Assembly (NCBI GenBank): GCA_950096615.1
Contig: CATNCP010000001.1
Span: 1 to 64,000 of the forward strand
Length of the DNA: 64,000 bases
Direction: 5' to 3'
Origin: an uncultured Kangiella sp.
GTDB lineage: Bacteria > Pseudomonadota > Gammaproteobacteria > Enterobacterales > Kangiellaceae
A program made the position numbers and the translations under genes. Each line of letters starts with the position of its first letter. Positions within the stretch are counted from its first letter, which is position 1. Below are positions 13,118-44,062 of the stretch, one piece after another. The notes under the pieces are model-generated. The model saw only the letters and a program-made list of their open reading frames with translations, was not told the origin of the DNA and did no database searches.

Positions 13118-13483
13118 CTACAGCTCCTTTGAGCTCAACACTTCAAATGACAAGCTACTATTCATTTTATGAGAGTCTGCTCCCATGATGCCCCACTCAG
13201 CTTTGTACTTACCTGGTTTAAGCTCAGGAACTGGAATCACAAATTCGGCAGTTGGTGCATAAGTAAGTTTGTAATCTAAGCTAACTTCTCCACCATCGGT
13301 GTGGCTTAACTTAATGCTTACTAGACGAACGTTTTTGGAGTAGCTGATTGTCAATGAGCTAGGGCTTGATTCTAGAGTCTCACCAGAAGCCGGTGAGGTC
13401 TTAACAACTTTGACATGAGCGGAAGCTATATTGAAGATAGCAACAAACCCTAAAACGAATACAGTGTAAATAAAATTTTTCAT
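13118..13483 (-). CDS. copC: CopC-domain periplasmic copper-resistance protein
   Basis: 121 aa; signal peptide, AHVKVVKTSPASGETLESSPSSLTISYSKNV...WGIMGADSHKMNSSLSFEV. Confidence 0.88.
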   Translation of the reverse strand: MKNFIYTVFVLGFVAIFNIASAHVKVVKTSPASGETLESSPSSLTISYSKNVRLVSIKLSHTDGGEVSLDYKLTYAPTAEFVIPVPELKPGKYKAEWGIMGADSHKMNSSLSFEVLSSKEL

Positions 13484-29878: not shown

Positions 29879-32371
29879 TTAATTAGTTTGCGACAAGTAG
29901 TAACGGCTCATTGCTACTGCAAAGTCTGCGCGGCTCATTAACTCTTGTGGAGAGAAGTGAGCAACAATAGTCGGTTCTAGGTCAAACGGTCCTTGCTCAA
30001 CGCTAAAACTAACTCCAAGAACGCCGCGGTCAATCGCATGCTGTACATAGTGCTTTAGACCTTCTGGGATGCTATCTTGGTCCGCGATTACGACTCGCTC
30101 GTCACCAAATGTTGCTGTTACATTCGTGCCATCATAGCTTGAGTCAACGCCTTCTAAACCTAGTGACTGCATTAATGAATAAGCCACATCAAGCTTGCTC
30201 ACCTTGCCTTTCGGGTCAAATGTTGAACCACTAGCAGACATTACTGGAGCTTGTTGTTGTGCACGGTCTTTTAATGCGCCACCCGTCTGCGTCACAGCGT
30301 TGACACTTGCTGAGTTAGCAGTTTTGACGTCAACAAACGTTTTATCCGCAGCGTCGTTCGATTGACGGATACCAGCACCTAATGTCAGGAAGTCAGCCAT
30401 TTCAGCACGAGTTAATAAACGATCTGGCTTGAAGCCGTTGGCAGTACCATCAACCAACTGCTCGCTTACTGCATGCTCAATGAAACCTTGCGCTGGATGC
30501 CCTACAACATCGTCTAGACCGACAAAACCATCTGTGCGAATCATTTTGATATTCGCTTGGATGGTACTAGGAGCACCGTAACCGTTAGTAACGCCAGCTG
30601 GGTCTAGAGCTACGCCTGATACAGAACCCACACCGCCTGCTTTGATGACCCACTCACCTGGCTCACCTGGAGCTACTACCGCGATGTTCTCGCCTAATAC
30701 TGGTAACGCAATGCTAGAACCATAACGCTTACCTGAAGGGCTGGTTAGGGTCAGGGCAACCGTATTATCTGAAACCTGAGCACTCGCCATAACCAATGAA
30801 ATATCACTGTCTACGTTGAATGGAGTTCCTGGGTTATCACCCACAGGAGCAAAAGGAACGCTGGTTGGAAAGTCACGCGCTAAAGACGTTAGTGAAGCTG
30901 CGTTAAAATCGCGATTAACCTTCGTGGTTTGACCGAAATCTTGGCTTTCTTCAAGCACCGCTTTTACCGCGGCATAAGCGTTTACATAACCCGCACCAGC
31001 TTCCCATGGCTCTAGGCCAGGCATGTTAGTAGCAGTATTTTGAAGAATGCGTTTGACGTCACTCCAGTTTAGCGAAGGGTCTGCTTCTAACATCAAAGCA
31101 ACCACGCCTGAGATATGTGGTGCTGACATTGAAGTACCACTTGAATGCGTATAGTAAGGAACTTGCGCAGGTGGTAATAAATCAACATCATCAGTGATGC
31201 TTAACCAAGATGTACTACCTAGCGACGCACGTGCTGAAGCAATATCAACACCTGGTGCAGTAATCGTTGGGCGATCAACCCACTCATAAGTTTCACCGTC
31301 TACCTCAACAGTGCCGCCCTTGCCTTTCACACCACGTGAACTAAAGTCAGCTAAGTTACCGTCTTTATCGCCTGCTGCAACAGTGACAACCCATGGTGCT
31401 TTTTTGAAGTTACCTGTAATAGTACTTTCGCCGTTTCCTGAGTTACCTGCTGAGAACACAACGATGACACCGTTATCGCTTAATCGCTTAGTAATAACGT
31501 TTGTCGGATCGTCTGGATTAAAGTCTGTACCCACATCGCCCGTATTACCGAAAGAGTTTGAAATCACACGAATGTTGTATTCGAATTGATGACTTAGTGC
31601 ATAGTCGAAGCCACCTAACGTATCAAGAATGAATAGACCAGCGCCTGAGCCATAACCAATGATTTTAGCACCAGGAGCAACGCCTTCTTGCTCACCACTC
31701 GACATGCTACCGTTACCGCCAATCGTGCCTGCTACGTGAGTACCATGGCCACCGGCAATATCGGTATTCGCAATATTTTCTTGATAAGTAATTGGAGCGA
31801 GATCGCTAAATGAGCGTAAGTTTGTTTGTGCTAACACGTTTTGCACAACGTGATTAGGGTATTTTAGGTCTGGGTGAGTACCGTCTACACCAGAGTCATT
31901 AACGACAACACCAATACCACGGCCTGAGAATGGCATGCCTTGGTTGCGTAAACTGCTGTCTGCACGCAAGCGATCCACACCTGTGATTTGTGTAGCGCCT
32001 TGATTGTCATAAGTGAGTTCAGAGTTGTGCCATACAGAGCGTACGTCATCACGTGAATAAATCGCATCGATTTGTGATTTAGTAGCAAGAAGACCAACAA
32101 TTGGAACATTCTGCAAGCTGACTCCAGACGTAACGCCTAGTTGCTCTAGTGCGTTTAACTGAAGAGGCGTCGCAGGACCTTCACCTTCAAAAGTTACAAT
32201 GACCTCAAACACTTCAGCTTCAGATGCTGTTGGAAGCATTTCGCTTAATTGAGGACCTAATGATTTTGCTGACAAGCCTAAAGAAGTTACGCCAAGTCCC
32301 GCTGCAAGCATCGCTGCTTGTAACGGCTTTGATTTAAATAATGATGTTGTTTTCATGTTTTGTCTACCCAT
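29879..32371 (-). CDS. Secreted S8 subtilisin-like protease 1 with C-terminal SLH-like repeats
   Basis: Triad motifs VVVNDSGVDGTHPDL, GGHGTHVAGT, SGTSMSAPHISG; C-terminus DDVVGHPAQGFIEHAVSEQLVDGTANGFKPDRLLTRAEMADFL and two related segments. Start ambiguous (32371 or 32356). Confidence 0.9.
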   Translation of the reverse strand: MGRQNMKTTSLFKSKPLQAAMLAAGLGVTSLGLSAKSLGPQLSEMLPTASEAEVFEVIVTFEGEGPATPLQLNALEQLGVTSGVSLQNVPIVGLLATKSQIDAIYSRDDVRSVWHNSELTYDNQGATQITGVDRLRADSSLRNQGMPFSGRGIGVVVNDSGVDGTHPDLKYPNHVVQNVLAQTNLRSFSDLAPITYQENIANTDIAGGHGTHVAGTIGGNGSMSSGEQEGVAPGAKIIGYGSGAGLFILDTLGGFDYALSHQFEYNIRVISNSFGNTGDVGTDFNPDDPTNVITKRLSDNGVIVVFSAGNSGNGESTITGNFKKAPWVVTVAAGDKDGNLADFSSRGVKGKGGTVEVDGETYEWVDRPTITAPGVDIASARASLGSTSWLSITDDVDLLPPAQVPYYTHSSGTSMSAPHISGVVALMLEADPSLNWSDVKRILQNTATNMPGLEPWEAGAGYVNAYAAVKAVLEESQDFGQTTKVNRDFNAASLTSLARDFPTSVPFAPVGDNPGTPFNVDSDISLVMASAQVSDNTVALTLTSPSGKRYGSSIALPVLGENIAVVAPGEPGEWVIKAGGVGSVSGVALDPAGVTNGYGAPSTIQANIKMIRTDGFVGLDDVVGHPAQGFIEHAVSEQLVDGTANGFKPDRLLTRAEMADFLTLGAGIRQSNDAADKTFVDVKTANSASVNAVTQTGGALKDRAQQQAPVMSASGSTFDPKGKVSKLDVAYSLMQSLGLEGVDSSYDGTNVTATFGDERVVIADQDSIPEGLKHYVQHAIDRGVLGVSFSVEQGPFDLEPTIVAHFSPQELMSRADFAVAMSRYYLSQTN

Positions 32372-32415
32372 TTAGTAATTCCTAAATGAGCATGCCATGA
32401 AACCAGATGACGTGG

Positions 32416-32434
32416 GTATCGGGGAAAACCCCTA
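32416..32434 (-). promoter_or_regulatory. GGGG-N4-CCCC element upstream of S8 protease 1
   Basis: Minus strand TAGGGG-TTTT-CCCC-GATAC; matches the elements upstream of S8 proteases 2 and 3. Confidence 0.65.
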
Positions 32435-32494
32435 GAAATATTGCCGTTACTACCTAGCTAAAGAGGTAAGACCAATAAGATTGAAAAATTTTCT

Positions 32495-33130
32495 TTAAAT
32501 CAATAGCTTATGTTGCGCAGCATACTTCACTAACTCAGCAGAATTAGCCACGTTAAGCTTGTCTAATACCTTACCTCGATGGTTTTCAGCAGTTTTAACA
32601 CTAATATCGAGAGCTTTAGCGACTTCTTTAGTAGTTTTACCATCGACCACAAGGTGAAAAACTTCACGTTCGCGCTTGGTTAAGTTCTTGTAGGGGTCGC
32701 TCCATTTGTCTGGCTGTGTGTATTGATTAGCCAAAACTTGAGCAGCATATTGGCTGTAGTAACTTTTCCCACTAGCCAATGTCTTGACAGCTTGGATTAA
32801 CTCCTCGCTGGCACTATCTTTTAATAAATAACCGGAAGCTCCAGCACGAACCATGTGAATCACATACTCTTCCTCTTCGTGCATGGTTAGTACTAAAATC
32901 CGGCAATCAGGTAGCTTTTGATGAATACGCTTCACTACTTCCATGCCATTTAACTCAGGCATACTAATATCGACAACCGCAATCTGTGGTTCAAGCTCAA
33001 ATGCTTTCTCAACGGCCTCAATACCATTGGAAGCTTCCCCAACAACCATGCAATCATCATCTTTAGCCAGGATACTGACTAAGCCTTGCCTTAAGATAGT
33101 ATGGTCATCGGCTAATAGCACTCGGATCAT
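32495..33130 (-). CDS. NarL/FixJ (LuxR-HTH) response regulator
   Basis: 211 aa; receiver residues LLADDHT, VVDISMPELNG, YLLKDSA; HTH LTKREREVFHLVVDGKTTKEVAKALDISVKTAENHRGKVLDKL. Confidence 0.94.
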   Translation of the reverse strand: MIRVLLADDHTILRQGLVSILAKDDDCMVVGEASNGIEAVEKAFELEPQIAVVDISMPELNGMEVVKRIHQKLPDCRILVLTMHEEEEYVIHMVRAGASGYLLKDSASEELIQAVKTLASGKSYYSQYAAQVLANQYTQPDKWSDPYKNLTKREREVFHLVVDGKTTKEVAKALDISVKTAENHRGKVLDKLNVANSAELVKYAAQHKLLI

Positions 33131-33132
33131 AG

Positions 33133-33861
33133 TTAGTTACTCCCCACTAGTAACATCTTAATTTCGCTGCCCTCTCCAAGCTTTGATTGAATCATTAGCT
33201 GCCCCCCAAAGGCAGCAACACGATCTTGCATCGCAGACAAACCAAAACCATCTGGTCCTAAAGCTTTTTCAGTATCCATGCCAACACCATCATCTATAAC
33301 TTTGACCATTAATAAACTCGGCTGTGAAACGACTTGCACACTGATGTGTTCGGCTTCTGCATGTTTAATCGCATTGGTAATGGACTCCTGCACAACCCGA
33401 AAAACCAATGTTTGGGTTTCCCCATCAAGCTCATGAGCTAACTGGGCTTCTAATGTAATATCGGCTTTTTCTTCTTCGCGCATAACGCGCGTTAACCATT
33501 TCAGCGCCGGCTCTAATCCCAAATCATCCAAAATTCTAGGACGCATCAGGCGCGAAATTTTTCGTGTATCGCTTAGGGCTTGTCGCGCTAACTCTAAACT
33601 ATCCTGCAGGCTCTTCAGAGTCTCATCAGACACATCCTCTTTTGCCGTCAACTCAATTTGATTGATTAATGCAGTTAGTAGTTGCCCAACCCCATCATGC
33701 AGTTCACGAGCAATATGTTTGCGCTCATCTTCTTGTACACGCCAAACACGCTTAGCTAAGCTGCGCATTTGAGTATTCCCACTGGCCAGATTTTCTGCAA
33801 TCTGACTTTGCTTAAGACTTAATGCATCAAGCATCTTGCTTATCTCATCACTCTTTGTCAT
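33133..33861 (-). CDS. Soluble HisKA_3-type histidine kinase
   Basis: ERKHIARELHDGVGQLLTAL, QESITNAIKHA, IDDGVGMD; no TM segment; probable start MTKSDE overlaps the upstream kinase gene by 14 nt. Confidence 0.9.
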   Translation of the reverse strand: MTKSDEISKMLDALSLKQSQIAENLASGNTQMRSLAKRVWRVQEDERKHIARELHDGVGQLLTALINQIELTAKEDVSDETLKSLQDSLELARQALSDTRKISRLMRPRILDDLGLEPALKWLTRVMREEEKADITLEAQLAHELDGETQTLVFRVVQESITNAIKHAEAEHISVQVVSQPSLLMVKVIDDGVGMDTEKALGPDGFGLSAMQDRVAAFGGQLMIQSKLGEGSEIKMLLVGSN

Positions 33862-36800
33862 TAATTTGCTCCATGAAAAGGTCAACTTGCGGTTGACCGT
33901 CTGAAAAATAACGTCCTTGCAATGAAATAAGGTGCTGCTGTTGTTGCTCAGATAATTGTTGTTTTAATTCGGTAAAGCTCTTTAAGGCTTTTAATGCGCT
34001 ATCATTGGCTTTTTCTGAGTTTTTTATCATGCCGTAATAAATACTTTCTAACCGCTCTATTTGATAATTTCTCCAATAAGTACCAACGCCTCGCTTCAGC
34101 ATAACAAGTTGGTCTAGTACAGTTTTTAGGGACTCATCATCACCCTTTTGAGCATGAAAGAATCCTAAAAGAATGAGCTTCCTAAGTAAGTAGTAACGAT
34201 GCAAGTCTAGATCGTATTGGTCAAACTTCTGACTGACCTCGACAAACTCATCCCCAGTATTCTCTTTATTCGCTGCATTATTGAATAACAATATTTCTAA
34301 CTGATGGACTAAACTTTCCAACGCGGCTTTCGACGTGACCTGCTCGAACTTCTGCTCAGCGGTAGTCTCAGTCTCCTCGCCTCGATATAAACTCAGTCTT
34401 GAATCCAAGGTGTTATATATAAGCTGTTGTGAACGATTTTTTTCCTGCTCCATCAATGGTGTAAGCTCGGTTAACATCGACTCAGCTTGTTGGTATGCAC
34501 CAGTTGAAATATACCAATCAGTTAACCACAAACTGAACTCCACTTGCCCTCGGACATCTTGGCGCTGTTTAAGCTCGGCTTTAATATCTGACAACTGTAG
34601 TGGCGGTTGCTCAAAGTTGCCTTGTATAAAAGCAATTTTGGCTAAGTAAGCCTTTGAAACTATGGTTTCTTCGGTTAGGTTCAACTCTTCAGACTTCTCT
34701 AAAGCAGACTGATACATGCGATACGCTGACTGCCAGTTACCTTTTTGTAGCTCAAGCTGCGCCATATTCTCATTAACACGAACCACACCTACCGGGTCAT
34801 CAACCTTTTCGTAATAAGCTTTAGCCTGTTCCCAATAAATAGTCGCTTGCTCTTCATCAGAGAGTAAAAAGAAAATATAGGCGACGTTATTAAGACTTTC
34901 AGCCTTTAGCCAATCGTCATCAAGCTTCATTCGGATACTTAATGATGCTTGAAAGTGCTCTAATGCTTTCGAGTATAGTCCTTGCTCCTCCGCGATAACC
35001 CCAAGCTCGTTAAATAGATCAGCTTGTTTGATAGCATCATTTCTCGTTTCGTTTGTTTCCAATGCTTTAAGCAAGCTTTCTTCTGCTTTATGGTACTCGC
35101 CCTTTACCGCGTAAACAGACGCTAAGTTAGAGAGGCTGGTAACGACCCCACGCTTATCATCCATTTTTTCACGAGCAGTTAATCCCTGCTGGTAATAATC
35201 AAGCGCTAAGTCCAACTGGCCTAGCCGGTGATGTGCGACACCAAACGCGTTAAGTACATCGCCTTGCAACTGAGTGTTTTTGAGCTTTTTCGCGGTTACC
35301 AGGGCTTTTACTAAATAGTTATCAACGGCTTCCTGAGTCTCGCCCTGCCAGATGGCGACTTTAGACAGTTCATACCATGCAATAGGATGATTCTCATCGT
35401 TTTCGACAACAGTGATTAGCTCTTGCTTGGCGGTTTCCAGAGACTGCTGCTCGATAAGGAGTTGTGCTAGCCCCAAACGTGTATCACTATTATTCGGAAG
35501 CTGTTGTAAAATACTACGATAAGTCTCGATTGCCGCGTCAATATCGCCAGCAAGCAACTGCAACTCTGCTTGAGTCTGTTTACGAACCAGTGAATTCTCT
35601 GGTGACGTTTCCATGGCCTTTTGCAACGCAGATTCAGCCTCTAAAACATTCCCTTTCGACGCTTCGAGTTGACCGAGTAATAGCCAGCCTTTACTGTATT
35701 CAGGCTCCGTTTCTAACAATATCTCTAGTTGTTCTTTTGCTCTGCCACCCTCGCCCTTTTGTAGCAAAGCTTCTACGTCGGAAATAGCTTCAAGACTGAT
35801 ACCTTGAGGAAGGTATGACTCTGTATCAAGAGACTCTAATCCAAACTGGTTATTCACAGCAGTGACCAATGAAGAAAACTCTTGAGCTAACCCTTCTTTA
35901 CTCGATTGAAACTGAATAATGTCCGACGTCTCAACAGTGTTTCCAGCTACACGAATTAACTCCGCATTAACTTGATACTGACTAGGGCCAACCGGAACTA
36001 GCTTGGTGTTAAGTAAATAAGAGCTTTGCGTAAGGTCACTAATAACTTTTAGCTTTTGTTGATCTAACGGTGTTTGATAACCGAGTAAATCCATGGTTTC
36101 TCGCGAGCGCTCATAACCAACGATTCGTAGCTCAGAGATTTGTGAAAGCTCATCGGAAAGCAAGTGTGGTAAACCATCAGTCAGCCAAGCTTCCGTGGAC
36201 TTAGTGTCGAAAGGCAACACAGCCAACGACTGTAGGCCCTCTTGTTGTGCCACAATCGACTGCTCTGAAACTATCGACTTATCTCCACGAAAAAGGTAAA
36301 TCCCTGCAGCCACCAAAACTAAGACTACAGTAGCCACGCCAATGGCAGTTACTGTAGAGTTTCGTTTAGGGCTTTTATCTGAACTGGATTTAATCAACTG
36401 TCTTACTTCTAAAACAGTTTTTGGCCTGGAGTCAGCTAAAGGCGCGATACAATGCTGTACAACCTTTTCATATTGAGAAAAAGCTTTCTCAAGCTTAATG
36501 TTTTGTGATTGGAGCTTCTCTTTTATCAGTTCTGCTTGTGTTTGGGCCTGATATGGTAACTCTTTTGTAATCAGCTCATAAAGAATCAACCCAAAAGCGT
36601 AAATATCAATCGAGGCTGCTGCTTTACCAGACTCAAGGTATTCTGGTGGCGAGTATAAGGGTGTTCCTGTAATGACAGCGGAGGCTTGGTCGCCTACGGC
36701 GCTAGCGATACCAAAATCAGCAATATAAAGGTGATCATCACTATCTATAAGAATATTGTCGGGCTTAAGGTCTTTGTGACTAATCCCTTTAGACTCTGTA

Positions 36801-37243
36801 ACTTCTAGCGCAGACAGTATCTGTTCTATAAAGCCATTAAGTGTCTCTTCCTTGACCTTATGCTGTTCTATACAGTCTTTAAGCGTATCCCCTTGGATCC
36901 AGTCCATAGTAATAAAGTGCGTATTATCATCTTCATAATACTCATGGACGCGAACAATATTGGGGTGGGACAATTGTCGCAGAGTCAGGATTTCGTTCTT
37001 AAATACTCGTAAAGAGTCATCCGATACCAGGTGTGCGTGAAGAACTTTAATGGCGACATCAGAATCAAGCTGTAGATCAGTAGCTTTGTAGACGCAACCA
37101 AAGCGGCCGCAACCTTGCAGGGATTGAATTTTAAAGCGCCCCACCAAAACAGAGTCAGTCTCGAGGGTCGCTGGCTTGGATAATACTTGTGTTTCTTTTA
37201 ACGAATCGGACTTAGTATTTTTATCTAAGTCATCATGCCCCAT
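33848..37243 (-). CDS. Ser/Thr protein kinase - TM - TPR protein
   Basis: 1131 aa; kinase VAIKVL, SHKDLKPDNILI, IADFGIAS; TM TVTAIGVATVVLVLVAAGIYLF; FlgO/TolB-like segment SLAVLPFDTKSTEAWLTDGLPHLLSDEL; many TPRs. Confidence 0.92.
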   Translation of the reverse strand: MGHDDLDKNTKSDSLKETQVLSKPATLETDSVLVGRFKIQSLQGCGRFGCVYKATDLQLDSDVAIKVLHAHLVSDDSLRVFKNEILTLRQLSHPNIVRVHEYYEDDNTHFITMDWIQGDTLKDCIEQHKVKEETLNGFIEQILSALEVTESKGISHKDLKPDNILIDSDDHLYIADFGIASAVGDQASAVITGTPLYSPPEYLESGKAAASIDIYAFGLILYELITKELPYQAQTQAELIKEKLQSQNIKLEKAFSQYEKVVQHCIAPLADSRPKTVLEVRQLIKSSSDKSPKRNSTVTAIGVATVVLVLVAAGIYLFRGDKSIVSEQSIVAQQEGLQSLAVLPFDTKSTEAWLTDGLPHLLSDELSQISELRIVGYERSRETMDLLGYQTPLDQQKLKVISDLTQSSYLLNTKLVPVGPSQYQVNAELIRVAGNTVETSDIIQFQSSKEGLAQEFSSLVTAVNNQFGLESLDTESYLPQGISLEAISDVEALLQKGEGGRAKEQLEILLETEPEYSKGWLLLGQLEASKGNVLEAESALQKAMETSPENSLVRKQTQAELQLLAGDIDAAIETYRSILQQLPNNSDTRLGLAQLLIEQQSLETAKQELITVVENDENHPIAWYELSKVAIWQGETQEAVDNYLVKALVTAKKLKNTQLQGDVLNAFGVAHHRLGQLDLALDYYQQGLTAREKMDDKRGVVTSLSNLASVYAVKGEYHKAEESLLKALETNETRNDAIKQADLFNELGVIAEEQGLYSKALEHFQASLSIRMKLDDDWLKAESLNNVAYIFFLLSDEEQATIYWEQAKAYYEKVDDPVGVVRVNENMAQLELQKGNWQSAYRMYQSALEKSEELNLTEETIVSKAYLAKIAFIQGNFEQPPLQLSDIKAELKQRQDVRGQVEFSLWLTDWYISTGAYQQAESMLTELTPLMEQEKNRSQQLIYNTLDSRLSLYRGEETETTAEQKFEQVTSKAALESLVHQLEILLFNNAANKENTGDEFVEVSQKFDQYDLDLHRYYLLRKLILLGFFHAQKGDDESLKTVLDQLVMLKRGVGTYWRNYQIERLESIYYGMIKNSEKANDSALKALKSFTELKQQLSEQQQQHLISLQGRYFSDGQPQVDLFMEQINDKE

Positions 37244-37303
37244 TAATCTGCGCTCCTGTGGCTAATAGCCCAATATAGTAGTTTTCAGGAAGTACGACTA
37301 ATA

Positions 37304-38203
37304 CTAGTGTACTGCTAATATTTGCTCTTTAATTGGTTGTTGTTCGGCAAATATATGTTCCGGAATATTACTCAATATAGCAGATATTTCGTTTTGTAAA
37401 ACAATAGCTTCCGAATTTATTTTAATTTGTTCAGAAACTAAGTTGAGGATTTCTAGATCAAGCTCAGTTAAAACCTTATTCGCTTCTTTACTGTCGGTAT
37501 AAACCACTCCAACTAAATTGTTATCAGCCAGCAAAGGAATGCAAGCCAACGCCGCTATCTGCTTACGTTGAATGCTTTCTCGCGACGCCAATAAGTGGTC
37601 TAGCTTTACATCCATAGCAAGCACAGGGCTGCGTTGCTGCAGTGCTCTTTGCATCGCACCGACACTCCCTTCAAAAGATTTACTATGAAAGTCTTGGTGT
37701 GACATACCTTTGGCCGCACAAACAGTTAGAGCCTCAGGTGAATTACCCAGCATAACTAAGCCACGCTGAGTTCCAGTTAGGTTTAGCAGCGAATACAGTT
37801 GCTCATCTAACGCATCAAGTAAGGATTGGCTAGCAAGCTCGTTATATGACTTTCTAGATTGCTGTATACGCCATTCATTATGAGCATCTATTGAATCTAG
37901 TTGCTGTTTGGTTTTCAGCTCAAACAAACAATCAATTTCACCCAATGAAATAATATCGTTTGAAGACAGTTGACCATCATCGATCACTTGTCCGTTTATT
38001 CGTACACCATTTGAACTTAAACCATCTTTCAAATACCAGTGTTCTCCACGAGCATTCACTAAGGCATGCTTTCTGGACACACTAGGGTGATTAAGCCTGA
38101 CCTCACAATCATGGTCTCTCCCGACCTGATACTGTGAGTTTTCAAAAAGAACGCTTTCCTTAGCCGGCAAATCAGGATAACAAGCTGTTATTCTGGCTGG
38201 CAT
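37304..38203 (-). CDS. FHA-GAF domain protein
   Basis: 299 aa; FHA YQVGRDHDCEVRLNHPSVSRKHALV...LKDGLSSNGVRINGQ; GAF-like ALACIPLLADNNLVGVVYTDS. Confidence 0.85.
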   Translation of the reverse strand: MPARITACYPDLPAKESVLFENSQYQVGRDHDCEVRLNHPSVSRKHALVNARGEHWYLKDGLSSNGVRINGQVIDDGQLSSNDIISLGEIDCLFELKTKQQLDSIDAHNEWRIQQSRKSYNELASQSLLDALDEQLYSLLNLTGTQRGLVMLGNSPEALTVCAAKGMSHQDFHSKSFEGSVGAMQRALQQRSPVLAMDVKLDHLLASRESIQRKQIAALACIPLLADNNLVGVVYTDSKEANKVLTELDLEILNLVSEQIKINSEAIVLQNEISAILSNIPEHIFAEQQPIKEQILAVH

Positions 38204-38218
38204 AATCTCAACACCTCA

Positions 38219-39049
38219 TTAATTAATCAAACGTAAACTAAAGCGAAGAGTATTTGCTAACGCCATCAACTCACCTGCTACGTTGTCAATATCGCGGCTC
38301 GAACGCCATACGTCTGGAATATCTATGCCTCTAGCAGCCTCAACCAGTTGTTTGAACTCATTCAACTTGCTGCTGGCTTGCACATAATTTTGCAGAGTAA
38401 TTGACTGTTGAACTTCTGTTAACTTTGAATTAAGAGAAGTGTATGTCGCTGAAGACATTTCCGAAGAAAAGCCGCTTAAGGTTGAGCTTAAGTTATTCAT
38501 CTTAGTGTTCACAACTGTAGTCGGTAACCTAAGATCTGCCAAAATCAAGAACTGCGAGAATTTTCCGGTGGTACCACGAGCACGATAGCTGCCCGAGCCC
38601 ATAGTCATAGTAATATCTTTAAACTGACCACCCAATGGTGCTTTGAACAACCTTAGTGGTGTACCAGCGGTATACTCTAGGTTATGAGTATGAATATCAA
38701 CCGTAACTAATCCTTCAAACGATAAGCCTTGGCCTGAAGGCGGCTCAACGGTAATTAGCATTGGAAATGCCGACAGAAGATTGGTATCAAGACTTGATGG
38801 TAAGCGATTTAGGATATTGAGATTAGTAATATCAATAACTTCAGCAGTTAACCCTATACTGTTTTCATTTAAACCAATGGCATTCTCAAAACTGATGGTA
38901 AAATCGGCTTCGATGCCCCCAGCCAGTTCAATAACTGCTTCAACTTTCTTCCCTCCATTGACGGTTAATTCAACCGGTGAACTATGCGCACTCATAAAAA
39001 TACCGCACGAAACAATGGTAACCGCTAAGCGGCTAAGGAAATTTGACAT
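38219..39049 (-). CDS. Secreted protein of unknown function
   Basis: 276 aa; signal peptide, beta-rich N-terminal half (GGIEADFTISFENAIGL), helical C-terminal half. Confidence 0.6.
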   Translation of the reverse strand: MSNFLSRLAVTIVSCGIFMSAHSSPVELTVNGGKKVEAVIELAGGIEADFTISFENAIGLNENSIGLTAEVIDITNLNILNRLPSSLDTNLLSAFPMLITVEPPSGQGLSFEGLVTVDIHTHNLEYTAGTPLRLFKAPLGGQFKDITMTMGSGSYRARGTTGKFSQFLILADLRLPTTVVNTKMNNLSSTLSGFSSEMSSATYTSLNSKLTEVQQSITLQNYVQASSKLNEFKQLVEAARGIDIPDVWRSSRDIDNVAGELMALANTLRFSLRLIN

Positions 39050-39180
39050 TATGGACCTCCAGTGAGCTAAAAGCGCTCTTTACTACTCAACAAAACATTA
39101 CTTTTAGTAATAAAGAACATGTCATCAAAATACTTTTTTTTAACTCTTATTGCAACAAGTTCTTACTCTTTAAAACGAAC

Positions 39181-39210
39181 AGTAAAGCAGGGGCTATCCC
39201 CTGCTTTACT
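39181..39210 (-). terminator. Strong hairpin downstream of S8 protease 2
   Basis: AGTAAAGCAGGGG-CTAT-CCCCTGCTTTACT, 13-bp perfect stem 16 nt after the stop. Confidence 0.65.
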
Positions 39211-39225
39211 TTGTATAACAATAGC

Positions 39226-41691
39226 TTATTGGTAATAGCTATCGTAAGTTCTAGCTATGATTACTGCATACTCACCACGAGTAATTGTGTTTGATGGGTT
39301 AAAACGAGCAACCAAGGTTGGTTGTAAGTCAAATGGACCTTGTTCTACGTCAAACTCAACATTCAATAGTGATAGGTTTAAGGCAGCTTGTACGTGTCCA
39401 CGTAACTCAGCTGGTATAGAGTCTTGGTCGACAACAGTGATAGCCTGGCCATTATACTGAACGGTAATATCACCCGTATACTGCTCTGCTTCTGCTTGTA
39501 AGCCTAGAGTTTGTACTAATGAGTAAGCTAAATCCGCACGATTAACCGTAGCACTAACATCAAACTCTGAACCAGCAGTTCTGACCACAGCGTCTTGCGT
39601 TCTCTGAGCATCTTTAAGAGCTCCCGCTGGCGCGCTCACAGCTTCTGCGAAAGCCGCATCACTACCCGTTACATCAGTAAAGTTGATGCTTGGCTGGTTT
39701 AATAAGTCACGGTATTGTCTCACCGCAGCGCCCATCACTAAGTACTTCGACAAGTCACCCTTATTCAGGTCAGCGTCCGGCAAGTAGTTACCGCTAGCAT
39801 TTCCATCAACCAGGCGCTCACTGACTGCAAACTCAATAGCGCCCTTAGCTGGGTGACCGTTGATATCGTTTAGGCCTTCATAGCCACCAGACTCAATCAA
39901 TGTTATCTCACCAGAAATGATTTCAGGAACACCTGGGCCGTTAGTAATGCCGAGCGGATCAGGCTCTACACCTGAAAGCGAAGTCATACCATAACCTTCG
40001 ATACTCCAGATTCCTTGTTGGCCAGGAGCTGAAACACGCATAGCAGTGTCTAATACTGGTAGTGTTAAGTTACCGAAATACTCGGTACCGTCTGGTGCCG
40101 TTAGTTTTAGCTTGGTTGTATTTGCTAAATTTTCAGCTGATGCAGAAACAAAGGCCACATCGTTACCCACATAAAACTCATACTCATCAGGATTACCCAC
40201 AGGGATGTAGTTAACCGTGAATGGAATCGGCTCATCTGAAGGGATTAAAATTGCGTTAGCATTAAATTCATTAAGGTTGTTAACCGTAACGTCATAATCA
40301 GTGTCAAAGCTCAAAGCCGCAGCCACTGCTGCTTCCGCGTTAACGTAACCGCCACCAACTTCCCAAGTTTCATAACCTGGCATGTTTGTGGCTGTTTCCA
40401 TCATTAATTGTTTAATTTCTATTGGCGTCAAGTTTGGATTCGCTTCCAACATAACGGCAGCGATACCCGCAACGTGTGGCGTCGCCATTGAGGTACCAGA
40501 AATCATGGTGTAGTAAGGAAGATACTCAGCTTCGATAGCGTCCACATCATCTGCGCCGCCGTTTGAAACTACGTTAGTTTTAGCGCGTGTTGAAATAATA
40601 TCGACACCTGGAGCGACGATAGAAACTTCATTTTTATAAGTCCACTCTTCGCCATCAGGCATAGTGAAAGTACCCTCTTCACCTTTTTTACCACGTGAAG
40701 AGAAGTCAATCAGAGTGCCGCTCTTTGTACCAGCACCAACCGACATGCCCCAAGGGATTTGAGAATATGGGTTGTTAGTATCTTCACCTGGACCAGAGTT
40801 ACCAGCAGCGAACACCGACAACATGCCTTGCTTGTAAGCAATGTAAGATGACACTGAAATTGGGCCATCCGGCTCATACTTACCGCTTGAACCCCACGAG
40901 TTACTCATGATGCGGATTGGGCTGTTGAAATCATATAGGTGAGTCAAAGCGTAATCATAGCCGCCTAGTGCGTCTAAGATCGATAGGCCTGCGCCTGAAC
41001 CATAACCAACCAGATCCGCGTCTGGCGCTGCTCCTTTATGTTTACCATCAGAGTGCGCCCCTGTACCTGCAACCGTACCTGCACAGTGAGTACCGTGACC
41101 AACATTAAGGTCAGTATTCAGCTGATCTTCAATCCAAGTACCGCGTACTGGTGTTAAAGTTAACGCTTGCGCGTGAGTGATGGCTTGAACGTTTTGCACG
41201 ACTTTAGTCCCAAACTCTAAGTCATCGAGAGTCGCATCGATACCAGAGTCGTTGACCATAATCGTTACGCCTTTACCAGTGTACGTTGTTCCGTTCAATG
41301 CTCTGAACTCATCATTTTGCACACGGTCAACACCTGTAATGACTCGTGACTCAGCGTTAAAATACTCTAAGCTACGATTAGCAAACACAGAACGAACGCC
41401 ATCTAGTTGAGCAATTGCCTGGATTTGTGCAGGCGTCGCTTGAACACCGACGATAGGTAGTGATTGGAATTGCACGCCTTCGCTAAGGCCAAGGTTTAAT
41501 AATTGTTGCATTTGGCTACTGTTAACTTTGTCCATTTGATCGAAAGTTACAACGGCCATAACTGAATCGGTAGGATTTAAATTCGAAAGGTTTTGTTGAA
41601 GATGACTACCAATAACGGCGTCAGCTGCAGCATTAAGACTAAAACCTGCTAACGCAGCAGATAAAGCCAATTTTGATAAAGATTTATTCAT
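39226..41691 (-). CDS. Secreted S8 subtilisin-like protease 2 with C-terminal SLH-like repeats
   Basis: Triad motifs TIMVNDSGIDATLDDL, VGHGTHCAGT, SGTSMATPHVAG; C-terminus parallels protease 1. Start MNKSLSK preferred (GGAG 9 nt upstream); the track start at 41706 is GTG. Confidence 0.9.
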   Translation of the reverse strand: MNKSLSKLALSAALAGFSLNAAADAVIGSHLQQNLSNLNPTDSVMAVVTFDQMDKVNSSQMQQLLNLGLSEGVQFQSLPIVGVQATPAQIQAIAQLDGVRSVFANRSLEYFNAESRVITGVDRVQNDEFRALNGTTYTGKGVTIMVNDSGIDATLDDLEFGTKVVQNVQAITHAQALTLTPVRGTWIEDQLNTDLNVGHGTHCAGTVAGTGAHSDGKHKGAAPDADLVGYGSGAGLSILDALGGYDYALTHLYDFNSPIRIMSNSWGSSGKYEPDGPISVSSYIAYKQGMLSVFAAGNSGPGEDTNNPYSQIPWGMSVGAGTKSGTLIDFSSRGKKGEEGTFTMPDGEEWTYKNEVSIVAPGVDIISTRAKTNVVSNGGADDVDAIEAEYLPYYTMISGTSMATPHVAGIAAVMLEANPNLTPIEIKQLMMETATNMPGYETWEVGGGYVNAEAAVAAALSFDTDYDVTVNNLNEFNANAILIPSDEPIPFTVNYIPVGNPDEYEFYVGNDVAFVSASAENLANTTKLKLTAPDGTEYFGNLTLPVLDTAMRVSAPGQQGIWSIEGYGMTSLSGVEPDPLGITNGPGVPEIISGEITLIESGGYEGLNDINGHPAKGAIEFAVSERLVDGNASGNYLPDADLNKGDLSKYLVMGAAVRQYRDLLNQPSINFTDVTGSDAAFAEAVSAPAGALKDAQRTQDAVVRTAGSEFDVSATVNRADLAYSLVQTLGLQAEAEQYTGDITVQYNGQAITVVDQDSIPAELRGHVQAALNLSLLNVEFDVEQGPFDLQPTLVARFNPSNTITRGEYAVIIARTYDSYYQ

Positions 41692-41772
41692 AGTATCTAG
41701 CTCCACTTGGATTATCGATAGTTATCGTTGTTATTAATATTTATTATTTGACCTGAGAATAGATACATTTGG

Positions 41773-41791
41773 AATGAGGGTTATCCCCTAC
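41773..41791 (-). promoter_or_regulatory. GGGG-N4-CCCY element upstream of S8 protease 2
   Basis: Minus strand TAGGGG-ATAA-CCCT-CATTC. Confidence 0.55.
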
Positions 41792-41843
41792 ACCAACGGC
41801 TCCATTTGCCCCAAAACCGTATAAAACGTGATCAACATCACAT

Positions 41844-41867
41844 AAAAAAGGGCCCGAAGGCCCTTTT
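41844..41867. terminator. Bidirectional rho-independent terminator downstream of S8 protease 3
   Basis: AAAAAAGGGCC-CGAA-GGCCCTTTT. Confidence 0.75.
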
Positions 41868-41882
41868 GATTACCGCTAAATG

Positions 41883-43946
41883 TTAGTTTTGTACCAACTT
41901 AGATAGGGTCGTATTGATACGGTAATTGGTTAAAACACTAGCGTATCCGTTAACACGAAGCGTGTAATAACCAGCTTCATTAGGAGAATAACCAATAACT
42001 TCAGGGTTACCCAAAGTCGCGCTCGAAGCAACCGACTCACCATTTGGATCAATCAGCTCATAATCCAAATCAGCAACACCTTCCCAGCTTAGGTCAGACT
42101 CTATAAAAGCGACTGAGTCATCAGCAAAGAAACGGAAGTCTTGAGTCTGAACGTTTTCAGCTGATGGGCCAATCGTCCCTTCAACATAAAACTCTTCTGT
42201 CACCACAGACATGCCGTTATCGATTAACTGACCGTCAACTTTCAACGCATCAAGGTTAATTTTGCCTTCAACATGACGTAACTCTACAGAGTGAATGTCT
42301 TGCGCTGATAAATCACGAACGGCAAAGCTGCGTGTTTCTGGTGTTTGGCTGTAGAAATCAACGATTCCATAGCTGCGACCATCAACCAATAACTCACCAC
42401 GCCCGCCTTTATTGTTCGCTTGGTAAACGATTTGCATGCTCTCGCCCATGAAGTCGAACATCGCTTTAGAGCCACGCTTTTTAGTTTGCAGGAACGAACC
42501 GCCAAAGCTCTCGTTTGAGTTAACCAGTTTCCAGCGTGACGTATAGTCAATATTAGAATCTGACTGATCAATGTTGTTCCAAATACCTTGGCTTGACCAT
42601 GCCGTAGAACCGTTCATGAAATCTGCACGAACGCCTTGCGTATTACGTGCTAGCTCAACAGCAGCTTTAACGTTAACGTAACCATCACCTACTTGGTGGA
42701 AGCTGTAGCCAGGCATATCATCAGCAGATTCGCGGATAATGTCTTCAATCTGATCAGGAGACAAGTCTGGATTAACTTCTAATAACAATGCCGCAACGCC
42801 AGCAATAAATGGCGTAGCCATTGAAGTACCGCTCATACCTGCGTAATGAACGTGATACTCAGGATAGTCAGGCTCAAGTACTGGACCAAGCACTGGCAAC
42901 GGAGTATTGATTGCGCGGGTAGAGATAATATTAGAGCCTGGAGCAACTACGTCAATATGCTTGAACGTATCGTCTTCTACGCCACGGCTCGAGAAATCAG
43001 TGAGTTCTTTTTCAGGATTACCCGCACCAACATTAATCACCCATGGAGCAATCGCATAAGGGTTAATTGTGTCGTCGCCCGGGCCATCATTACCAGCTGC
43101 GAACGCAACAACCATACCTTTTTTGTAAGCTTCATAAGACGCTTGGTTAATCGGGTTATTTGGATCAAAAGCACCGCCGCCGCTTGCACCCCAGCTGTTT
43201 GTGATAATATCAATATCTAAACGCTCACGATTTGCGATTGCGTAGTCGAAACCACCGATTGAGAATAAAATTGAGATGGCTTCACCAGCACCTAAACCCA
43301 CGATATTAGCGTTTGGTGCGATACCATCATGATAGTTTGCACGACGTGTATCCATCGCTGAAGCAGCACCAGAGCCAGCAACCGTACCTGCTACGTGAGT
43401 ACCATGACCTGAGCTCGTATCCGTATTTGGAATACCTTCTAAGAAATAGTTACTACCGCCTAATAAGTCTAAATCGCCAAGGATTTTCACATTCTCAACA
43501 ACTTTAGAGCCCATTGGTAGATCTTGGTGAGTCGCATCAACACCTGAATCAAGAACCGCAACTGTTACGCCTTGACCAGTCACACCTTCAACGTCATGAA
43601 CATAATGACCGCCAGTAATTTCGCCAGAAGTATAGTTGTAATACTTAAGTGGCTTGTCGTAATAAATACTTTTTACGCGCTCATCGTTAGACAAATTCAT
43701 GATTTGCAGCTTATTAAGCGAGGCTCCAGCCATCGGCAAAGCCTGCATGCTCAAGTAAGGAGCATTCACTTGTAACATCACAGAATCTAAATCACTTCTG
43801 TCATGTGTCGTAATAATTACTTTTTTATTATCAAGCAGGTTTGGCAGCATTTGTTCTAGATCTGGGCCAATGATTGCGTCCGCTTGAGCACCCCCAGCTA
43901 ACGCCGTTAATACACAGGCAGAAAGCATTTTAAATTTAGTATTCAT
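41883..43946 (-). CDS. Secreted S8 subtilisin-like protease 3 with PPC-like C-terminal domain
   Basis: 687 aa; VAVLDSGVDATHQDL, SGHGTHVAGT, SGTSMATPFIAG; C-terminal DLDYELIDPNGESVASS...GYYTLRVNGY. Confidence 0.9.
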   Translation of the reverse strand: MNTKFKMLSACVLTALAGGAQADAIIGPDLEQMLPNLLDNKKVIITTHDRSDLDSVMLQVNAPYLSMQALPMAGASLNKLQIMNLSNDERVKSIYYDKPLKYYNYTSGEITGGHYVHDVEGVTGQGVTVAVLDSGVDATHQDLPMGSKVVENVKILGDLDLLGGSNYFLEGIPNTDTSSGHGTHVAGTVAGSGAASAMDTRRANYHDGIAPNANIVGLGAGEAISILFSIGGFDYAIANRERLDIDIITNSWGASGGGAFDPNNPINQASYEAYKKGMVVAFAAGNDGPGDDTINPYAIAPWVINVGAGNPEKELTDFSSRGVEDDTFKHIDVVAPGSNIISTRAINTPLPVLGPVLEPDYPEYHVHYAGMSGTSMATPFIAGVAALLLEVNPDLSPDQIEDIIRESADDMPGYSFHQVGDGYVNVKAAVELARNTQGVRADFMNGSTAWSSQGIWNNIDQSDSNIDYTSRWKLVNSNESFGGSFLQTKKRGSKAMFDFMGESMQIVYQANNKGGRGELLVDGRSYGIVDFYSQTPETRSFAVRDLSAQDIHSVELRHVEGKINLDALKVDGQLIDNGMSVVTEEFYVEGTIGPSAENVQTQDFRFFADDSVAFIESDLSWEGVADLDYELIDPNGESVASSATLGNPEVIGYSPNEAGYYTLRVNGYASVLTNYRINTTLSKLVQN

Positions 43947-44007
43947 AGTTTGGTCCTATCGTTATTTATTTAACGACAACCACTATGAACAAAGCATATA
44001 AAGAATT

Positions 44008-44026
44008 GTATTGGGGGAAACCCCTA
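44008..44026 (-). promoter_or_regulatory. GGGG-N4-CCCC element upstream of S8 protease 3
   Basis: Minus strand TAGGGG-TTTC-CCCC-AATAC. Confidence 0.65.
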
Positions 44027-44035
44027 GATAAGAAC

Positions 44036-44062
44036 GAGCATAGCACCTAGTTGTCTATGCTC
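44036..44062 (-). terminator. Hairpin just downstream of tatD, possible terminator
   Basis: GAGCATAG-N11-CTATGCTC, weak following T tract. Confidence 0.35.

Follow-up and report, generated by a model that had tools for sequence, protein, structure and literature searches.

The three subtilase genes in the window (the whole 64,000-nucleotide stretch of Kangiella DNA analysed here) are each preceded by a conserved dyad, which is read here as an operator from its sequence and distribution. We consider it highly likely that the NarL/FixJ-type response regulator encoded in the same locus (32495..33130) binds this box and activates all three genes. Distant bacteria with this regulator gene have the box at the corresponding protease genes too, and it is thus very probably the switch by which one sensor pathway turns on the proteases.

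All genes of the locus lie on the minus strand, with domains assigned using Pfam. In the direction of transcription they encode subtilase S8-3 (41883..43946, Peptidase_S8 with a PPC-like C-terminus), subtilase S8-2 (39226..41691, Peptidase_S8 and SLH), a DUF6689 protein that is the first gene of the signalling operon (38219..39049), an FHA-GAF protein (37304..38203), a Ser/Thr kinase with C-terminal TPR repeats (33848..37243), a HisKA_3 histidine kinase (33133..33885), the regulator, and subtilase S8-1 (29879..32371, Peptidase_S8 and SLH). The regulator is the predicted box binder and the subtilases are its predicted targets. A tandem cluster of S8A peptidases has been described in Kangiella, where secreted S8 peptidases were tied to an obligate proteolytic life (PMC6000758); this is probably the same locus. 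The terms "two-component" and "transcriptional regulat" are absent from the main text of that paper, and we found no account of an operator or regulator there. A literature search returned no match for the box as GGGG-N4-CCCC, for DUF6689, or for Kangiella combined with subtilisin and response regulator.

The 19-mer TAGGGG-N4-CCCY-N-ATWC occurs without mismatch on the minus strand upstream of S8-1 (32416..32434, core TAGGGGTTTTCCCC at 32421-32434), S8-2 (41772..41790, core TAGGGGATAACCCT at 41777-41790) and S8-3 (44008..44026, core TAGGGGTTTCCCCC at 44013-44026), ending 44, 80 and 61 nt before the respective start codons. The initial annotation had all three sequences right, and the positions and gaps at S8-1 and S8-3, but placed the S8-2 site one nucleotide away (41773-41791, with a gap of 81 nt). 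The pattern TAGGGGNNNNCCCYNATWC has exactly three exact matches in the 2.57-Mb Kangiella genome, one per subtilase upstream region, and a reversed control of the 19-mer pattern has none in the whole genome. A scan of the window allowing up to three mismatches gives 8 matches against 6.5 expected, which is chance level, so that the significance of the box rests on the exact matches and on conservation.

Within the genus, the box is present at 35/35 subtilase promoters from 12 Kangiella species. Outside N4 and the last base, the 14-bp core TAGGGG-N4-CCCY is fixed or nearly so across these 12 genomes, the exceptions being TGGGGG at S8-3 of one genome (G004) and the K. aquimarina-type clade, in which S8-3 has TAGGGGCTTTACCC and TGGGGGCTTTACCT. 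The flanking columns of the alignment mostly carry little information. The regulator and these subtilases occur together in 12 of the 20 genomes of the genus, and the remainder have neither at the orthologue level. The pattern TAGGGGNNNNCCCYNA has no match in seven near-complete regulator-less genomes, compared to 37 in the 12 that carry the regulator; an eighth regulator-less genome, 55% complete, has a single match, which is intragenic. In G004 the S8-2 gene has been lost, while a box, TAGGGGGAAACCCCCATTC, is kept between S8-3 and DUF6689 (L093; G004:C1:183003-183021), where it may have brought the signalling operon under box control.

Orthologues of the regulator, with 54-74% identity and a similar gene order, are found in Cognaticolwellia, Colwellia, Pseudoalteromonas, Marinicella, Rheinheimera, Arsukibacterium and Xanthomonadales, and also in a second genus of the window's own family (G036). 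Orthologous subtilases are preceded by the box in Colwellia, Pseudoalteromonas, Marinicella, Rheinheimera/Arsukibacterium and that second genus; in the first three it lies upstream of both S8-1 and S8-2. Five genomes from other genera (G408-G412) have 17 genome-wide matches to TAGGGGNNNNCCCY, of which 9 fall inside ten 250-bp subtilase upstream regions, against 0.002 expected. Several of the other genome matches to the box are intragenic. P. lipolytica, Cognaticolwellia and G036 encode S8-3 homologues outside the locus; each has a box-like site, lying 63-79 nt upstream of the start codon and imperfect in two of the three.

The signalling genes themselves present a more varied picture. In Kangiella, an upstream alignment shows no box before DUF6689 and its operon, as the initial annotation had stated. 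The absence does not extend to other genera: in Rheinheimera and Arsukibacterium the DUF6689-to-regulator operon is preceded by a perfect TAGGGGAAATCCCCTA, and most Xanthomonadales regulator-operon promoters match a matrix built solely from Kangiella subtilase promoters. In total, 28 of 34 scanned operon loci reached p<=0.05 against dinucleotide shuffles, although the promoters are related by descent and the p-values are thus not independent. The other six have no clear match, one of them being Marinicella, which has boxes at its subtilases instead. In a ranking of all windows from one locus, the operon promoter takes the first place or one close to it (median rank fraction 0.024), and 1 of 200 scrambled palindromic matrices equalled the real one in this ranking. 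Four loci (L304, L308, L323 and L324) also have GGG/CCC dyads, mostly in tandem, between regulator and subtilase. The boxes do mark the subtilases as targets, as originally proposed, but the accompanying exclusion of the signalling genes is valid for Kangiella only. A conserved sigma70 element of the TTGCAA-17-TATTTT type is present at the signalling-operon promoter in several Kangiella (39049-39150 in the window, minus strand), and this element suggests that basal expression of the operon would be independent of the box.

Because the regulator gene adjoins the subtilases, co-occurrence alone cannot identify the binder. The comparative evidence nevertheless favours the locus's own regulator, as had been suggested: near-complete regulator-less Kangiella genomes are boxless, S8-3 genes away from the locus have box-like sites, dyads stand at operon promoters of other genera, and the KTAENHR stretch of the recognition helix hardly varies across 58 regulator orthologues. 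From these observations we infer the identity of the binder. An alternative is that the box is a real operator bound by some other, global or nutrient, transcription factor, with the linked regulator acting elsewhere. This could account for a candidate site before an unrelated lipoprotein gene, and a CRP-like site at S8-2 indicates that other factors do act at these promoters. It is hard to reconcile with the lack of the box in regulator-less Kangiella genomes, and with the Xanthomonadales, where the dyad moves with the regulator operon even in loci with no subtilase behind the regulator. We regard it as unlikely.

The two sites just mentioned merit a description. The CRP-like site, TGTGATGTTGATCACG, lies upstream of S8-2 (41827..41842, minus strand), and its TGTGA-N6-TCACG pattern is kept in four sister species; S8-2 may respond to carbon supply as well. 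The lipoprotein belongs to the CC0125/CC1285 family and is preceded by the box-like TAAGGGGAAACCCTTA (G000:C27, about 13171-13186; L140). In three sister genomes (G002, G004 and G019) this position is occupied by TAGGGGAAAACCCTTA, with a good sigma70-like promoter about 20 nt further on; the site is altered in G000 and G008 and missing from distant homologues. The gene is thus a candidate fourth target.

The regulator contains Response_reg (5.4e-28) and GerE (1.9e-18) domains, which places it in the NarL/FixJ (LuxR-type) family, and its closest solved chains are DevR, VraR and NarL (1a04). Its scores for the NCBIfam equivalogs shown, including MctR, NarL, UvrY and UhpA, all stay under the respective cut-offs (the best, MctR, at 199.6 bits against a cut-off of 300), and it therefore represents an uncharacterised subfamily. 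The dyad had been likened to the inverted heptamers used by NarL/FixJ regulators. E. coli NarL shares the family architecture (REC and GerE), and its heptamer consensus is TACYYMT. This is not found in the three sites, and a NarL heptamer-pair operator was rejected; the geometry is that of two hexamers with a 4-nt spacer, TAGGGG-N4-CCCY, extending in Rheinheimera to the full palindrome TAGGGG-N4-CCCCTA.

A closer parallel is the ComA box of Bacillus subtilis, recognised by another member of the NarL/FixJ family, in which TTGCGG hexamers form an inverted repeat with a 4-nt spacer and a better conserved first half-site, and an additional degenerate element, a direct repeat, follows shortly downstream (PMC4797271). 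The Kangiella box is similar in having two hexamers, the 4-nt spacer, a stronger first half-site and an extra degenerate element. It differs in the hexamer itself, TAGGGG in place of TTGCGG, and in the extra element, which is a half-site 22-23 bp upstream and not a downstream direct repeat. In staphylococci, phosphorylated NreC, a NarL-family regulator, binds a GC-rich palindrome (PMC8139620). The Kangiella box shares with it both the GC-rich palindrome and the regulator family, whereas NreC governs a nitrate/oxygen regulon of Firmicutes. The NreC consensus is close to TAGGG-N4-CCCTA. The box is best read as a putative operator with the ComA-like 6-4-6 layout, serving an uncharacterised activator of the NarL/FixJ type.

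Two features of the promoters are new in this analysis, namely a spacing of about 25 nt from the box to a -10-like element with no -35 consensus, and a degenerate half-site 22-23 bp upstream. With the box-adjoining bases set aside, the -10-like position 25 nt past the core ranks best for all three groups of promoters, although the scores are low at S8-1 and S8-2. On the minus strand at S8-3 the hexamer is CATAGT (43982..43987), 25 nt past the core, invariant in Kangiella and at the best -10 offset of its group. S8-1 has CATGCT (32389..32394), 26 nt past the core; the spacing is conserved, being 25 in most relatives, and similar hexamers lie 25-26 nt past the core in Kangiella, Colwellia and Pseudoalteromonas. 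The possible hexamer of S8-2 in the window, TCAAAT (41746..41751), 25 nt past the core, is weak; several other genera share a GATAGY 23 nt past the core of S8-2. No -35 consensus was found beside the box at the subtilase promoters. A -10-like hexamer about 25 nt past the core puts the predicted centre of the box near -44. A site centred near -44 in a promoter that lacks a -35 consensus is usual for activator-dependent promoters, and the subtilase promoters may be of this class II-like type.

It is this arrangement from which we infer activation. The regulator might instead repress through the box, or repress and activate according to its phosphorylation state, and a position near -35 would also fit steric repression. 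The absence of a -35 consensus and the weak -10 hexamers would, however, leave promoters hardly functional unaided, and a constant spacing between box and -10 is typical of activators; we therefore find repression improbable, more so than binding by another factor.

The upstream half-site was located by scanning for YAGGK at offsets from -60 to +60 in 49 promoters. There is one clear secondary peak at -23, with a mean of 3.43 of 5 positions compared to 1.67 +/- 0.39 at other offsets, and -22 is also raised. On the minus strand of the window these degenerate distal half-sites are TAGGTAGTAACGGCAA at S8-1 (32441..32456, 22 bp upstream of the box), TGGGGCAAATGGAGCC at S8-2 (41798..41813, 23 bp) and TAGGTGCTATGCTCGT at S8-3 (44034..44049, 23 bp). 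The S8-2 half-site is also present in sister species (TAGGGC.., TAGGGA..) and absent from the K. aquimarina-type clade; at S8-3 of that clade, the distal element is a complete second box. Together with the YAGGK peak, this second box points to a paired-site operator, and the functional element probably exceeds the 19-mer, comprising two sites that are separated by two helical turns. The S8-2 promoters of five genomes (G001, G003, G005, G011 and G013; L090, L092, L094, L097 and L098) also have, past their -10-like element, a clade-conserved inverted repeat, AAGTCA-AAAA-TGACTT, which could be a further regulator site or a 5'-UTR stem.

A last reading, which takes the dyad for a hairpin or terminator formed in RNA or for a functionless relic of subtilase gene duplication, is barely credible, and the RNA-hairpin version was rejected. 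GGGGTTTTCCCC is foldable, the three subtilase genes are paralogous and a true GC hairpin does exist between S8-2 and DUF6689, but the arms of the box are fixed in sequence and do not co-vary, the conserved left TA is unpaired in Kangiella, and the box lies upstream of a conserved -10 and is kept in other genera where the neighbouring promoter DNA has strongly diverged. The GC hairpin itself follows S8-2 (39181..39210, minus strand) and has a 13-bp stem, with a predicted fold of -26.1 kcal/mol (z -4.2). Its loop end contains GGGGATAGCCCC, which was considered as a box before DUF6689 and rejected, as the stem sequence differs between species.

On the preferred reading, activation by the linked regulator, a phosphorylated regulator dimer would bind TAGGGG-N4-CCCY, assisted by the weaker second site two helical turns (22-23 bp) upstream. 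The bound box, centred near -44 and covering the missing -35 element, would recruit RNA polymerase to the weak -10, and the three subtilases would be turned on jointly. No sensor domain was found by Pfam in the histidine kinase, and the signal would therefore probably enter through the co-encoded Ser/Thr kinase and FHA-GAF proteins; such input to the histidine kinase is plausible. More tentatively, and with slightly less than even confidence, we propose a hybrid pathway that is conserved in Kangiella, Colwellia/Pseudoalteromonas-type genera and, at its far end, Xanthomonadales. Its Ser/Thr kinase and FHA-GAF protein would act on a histidine kinase that has no sensor and on a NarL-type regulator, and so on tandem TAGGGG-N4-CCCCTA sites phased by 22-23 bp that control dedicated secreted subtilases and, in some lineages, the regulator itself.

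These proposals assign an operator and a small, checkable set of targets to an uncharacterised regulator subfamily of several gammaproteobacterial groups, and point to the probable switch by which Kangiella, a genus living on protein, controls its extracellular digestion of this food. Since the Ser/Thr kinase and FHA genes are conserved along with the regulator, they open cross-talk between eukaryotic-like kinases and two-component systems to direct test with a single reporter.

It is worth adding that TAGGGGACGGCCCC, which precedes a gene for a SugE-like protein in both Kangiella (G003) and Colwellia, is not a box. It lies inside a guanidine-II (mini-ykkC) riboswitch (L126:1470-1514 and L225:1501-1545), whose GGGGACGGCCCC stem mimics the box.
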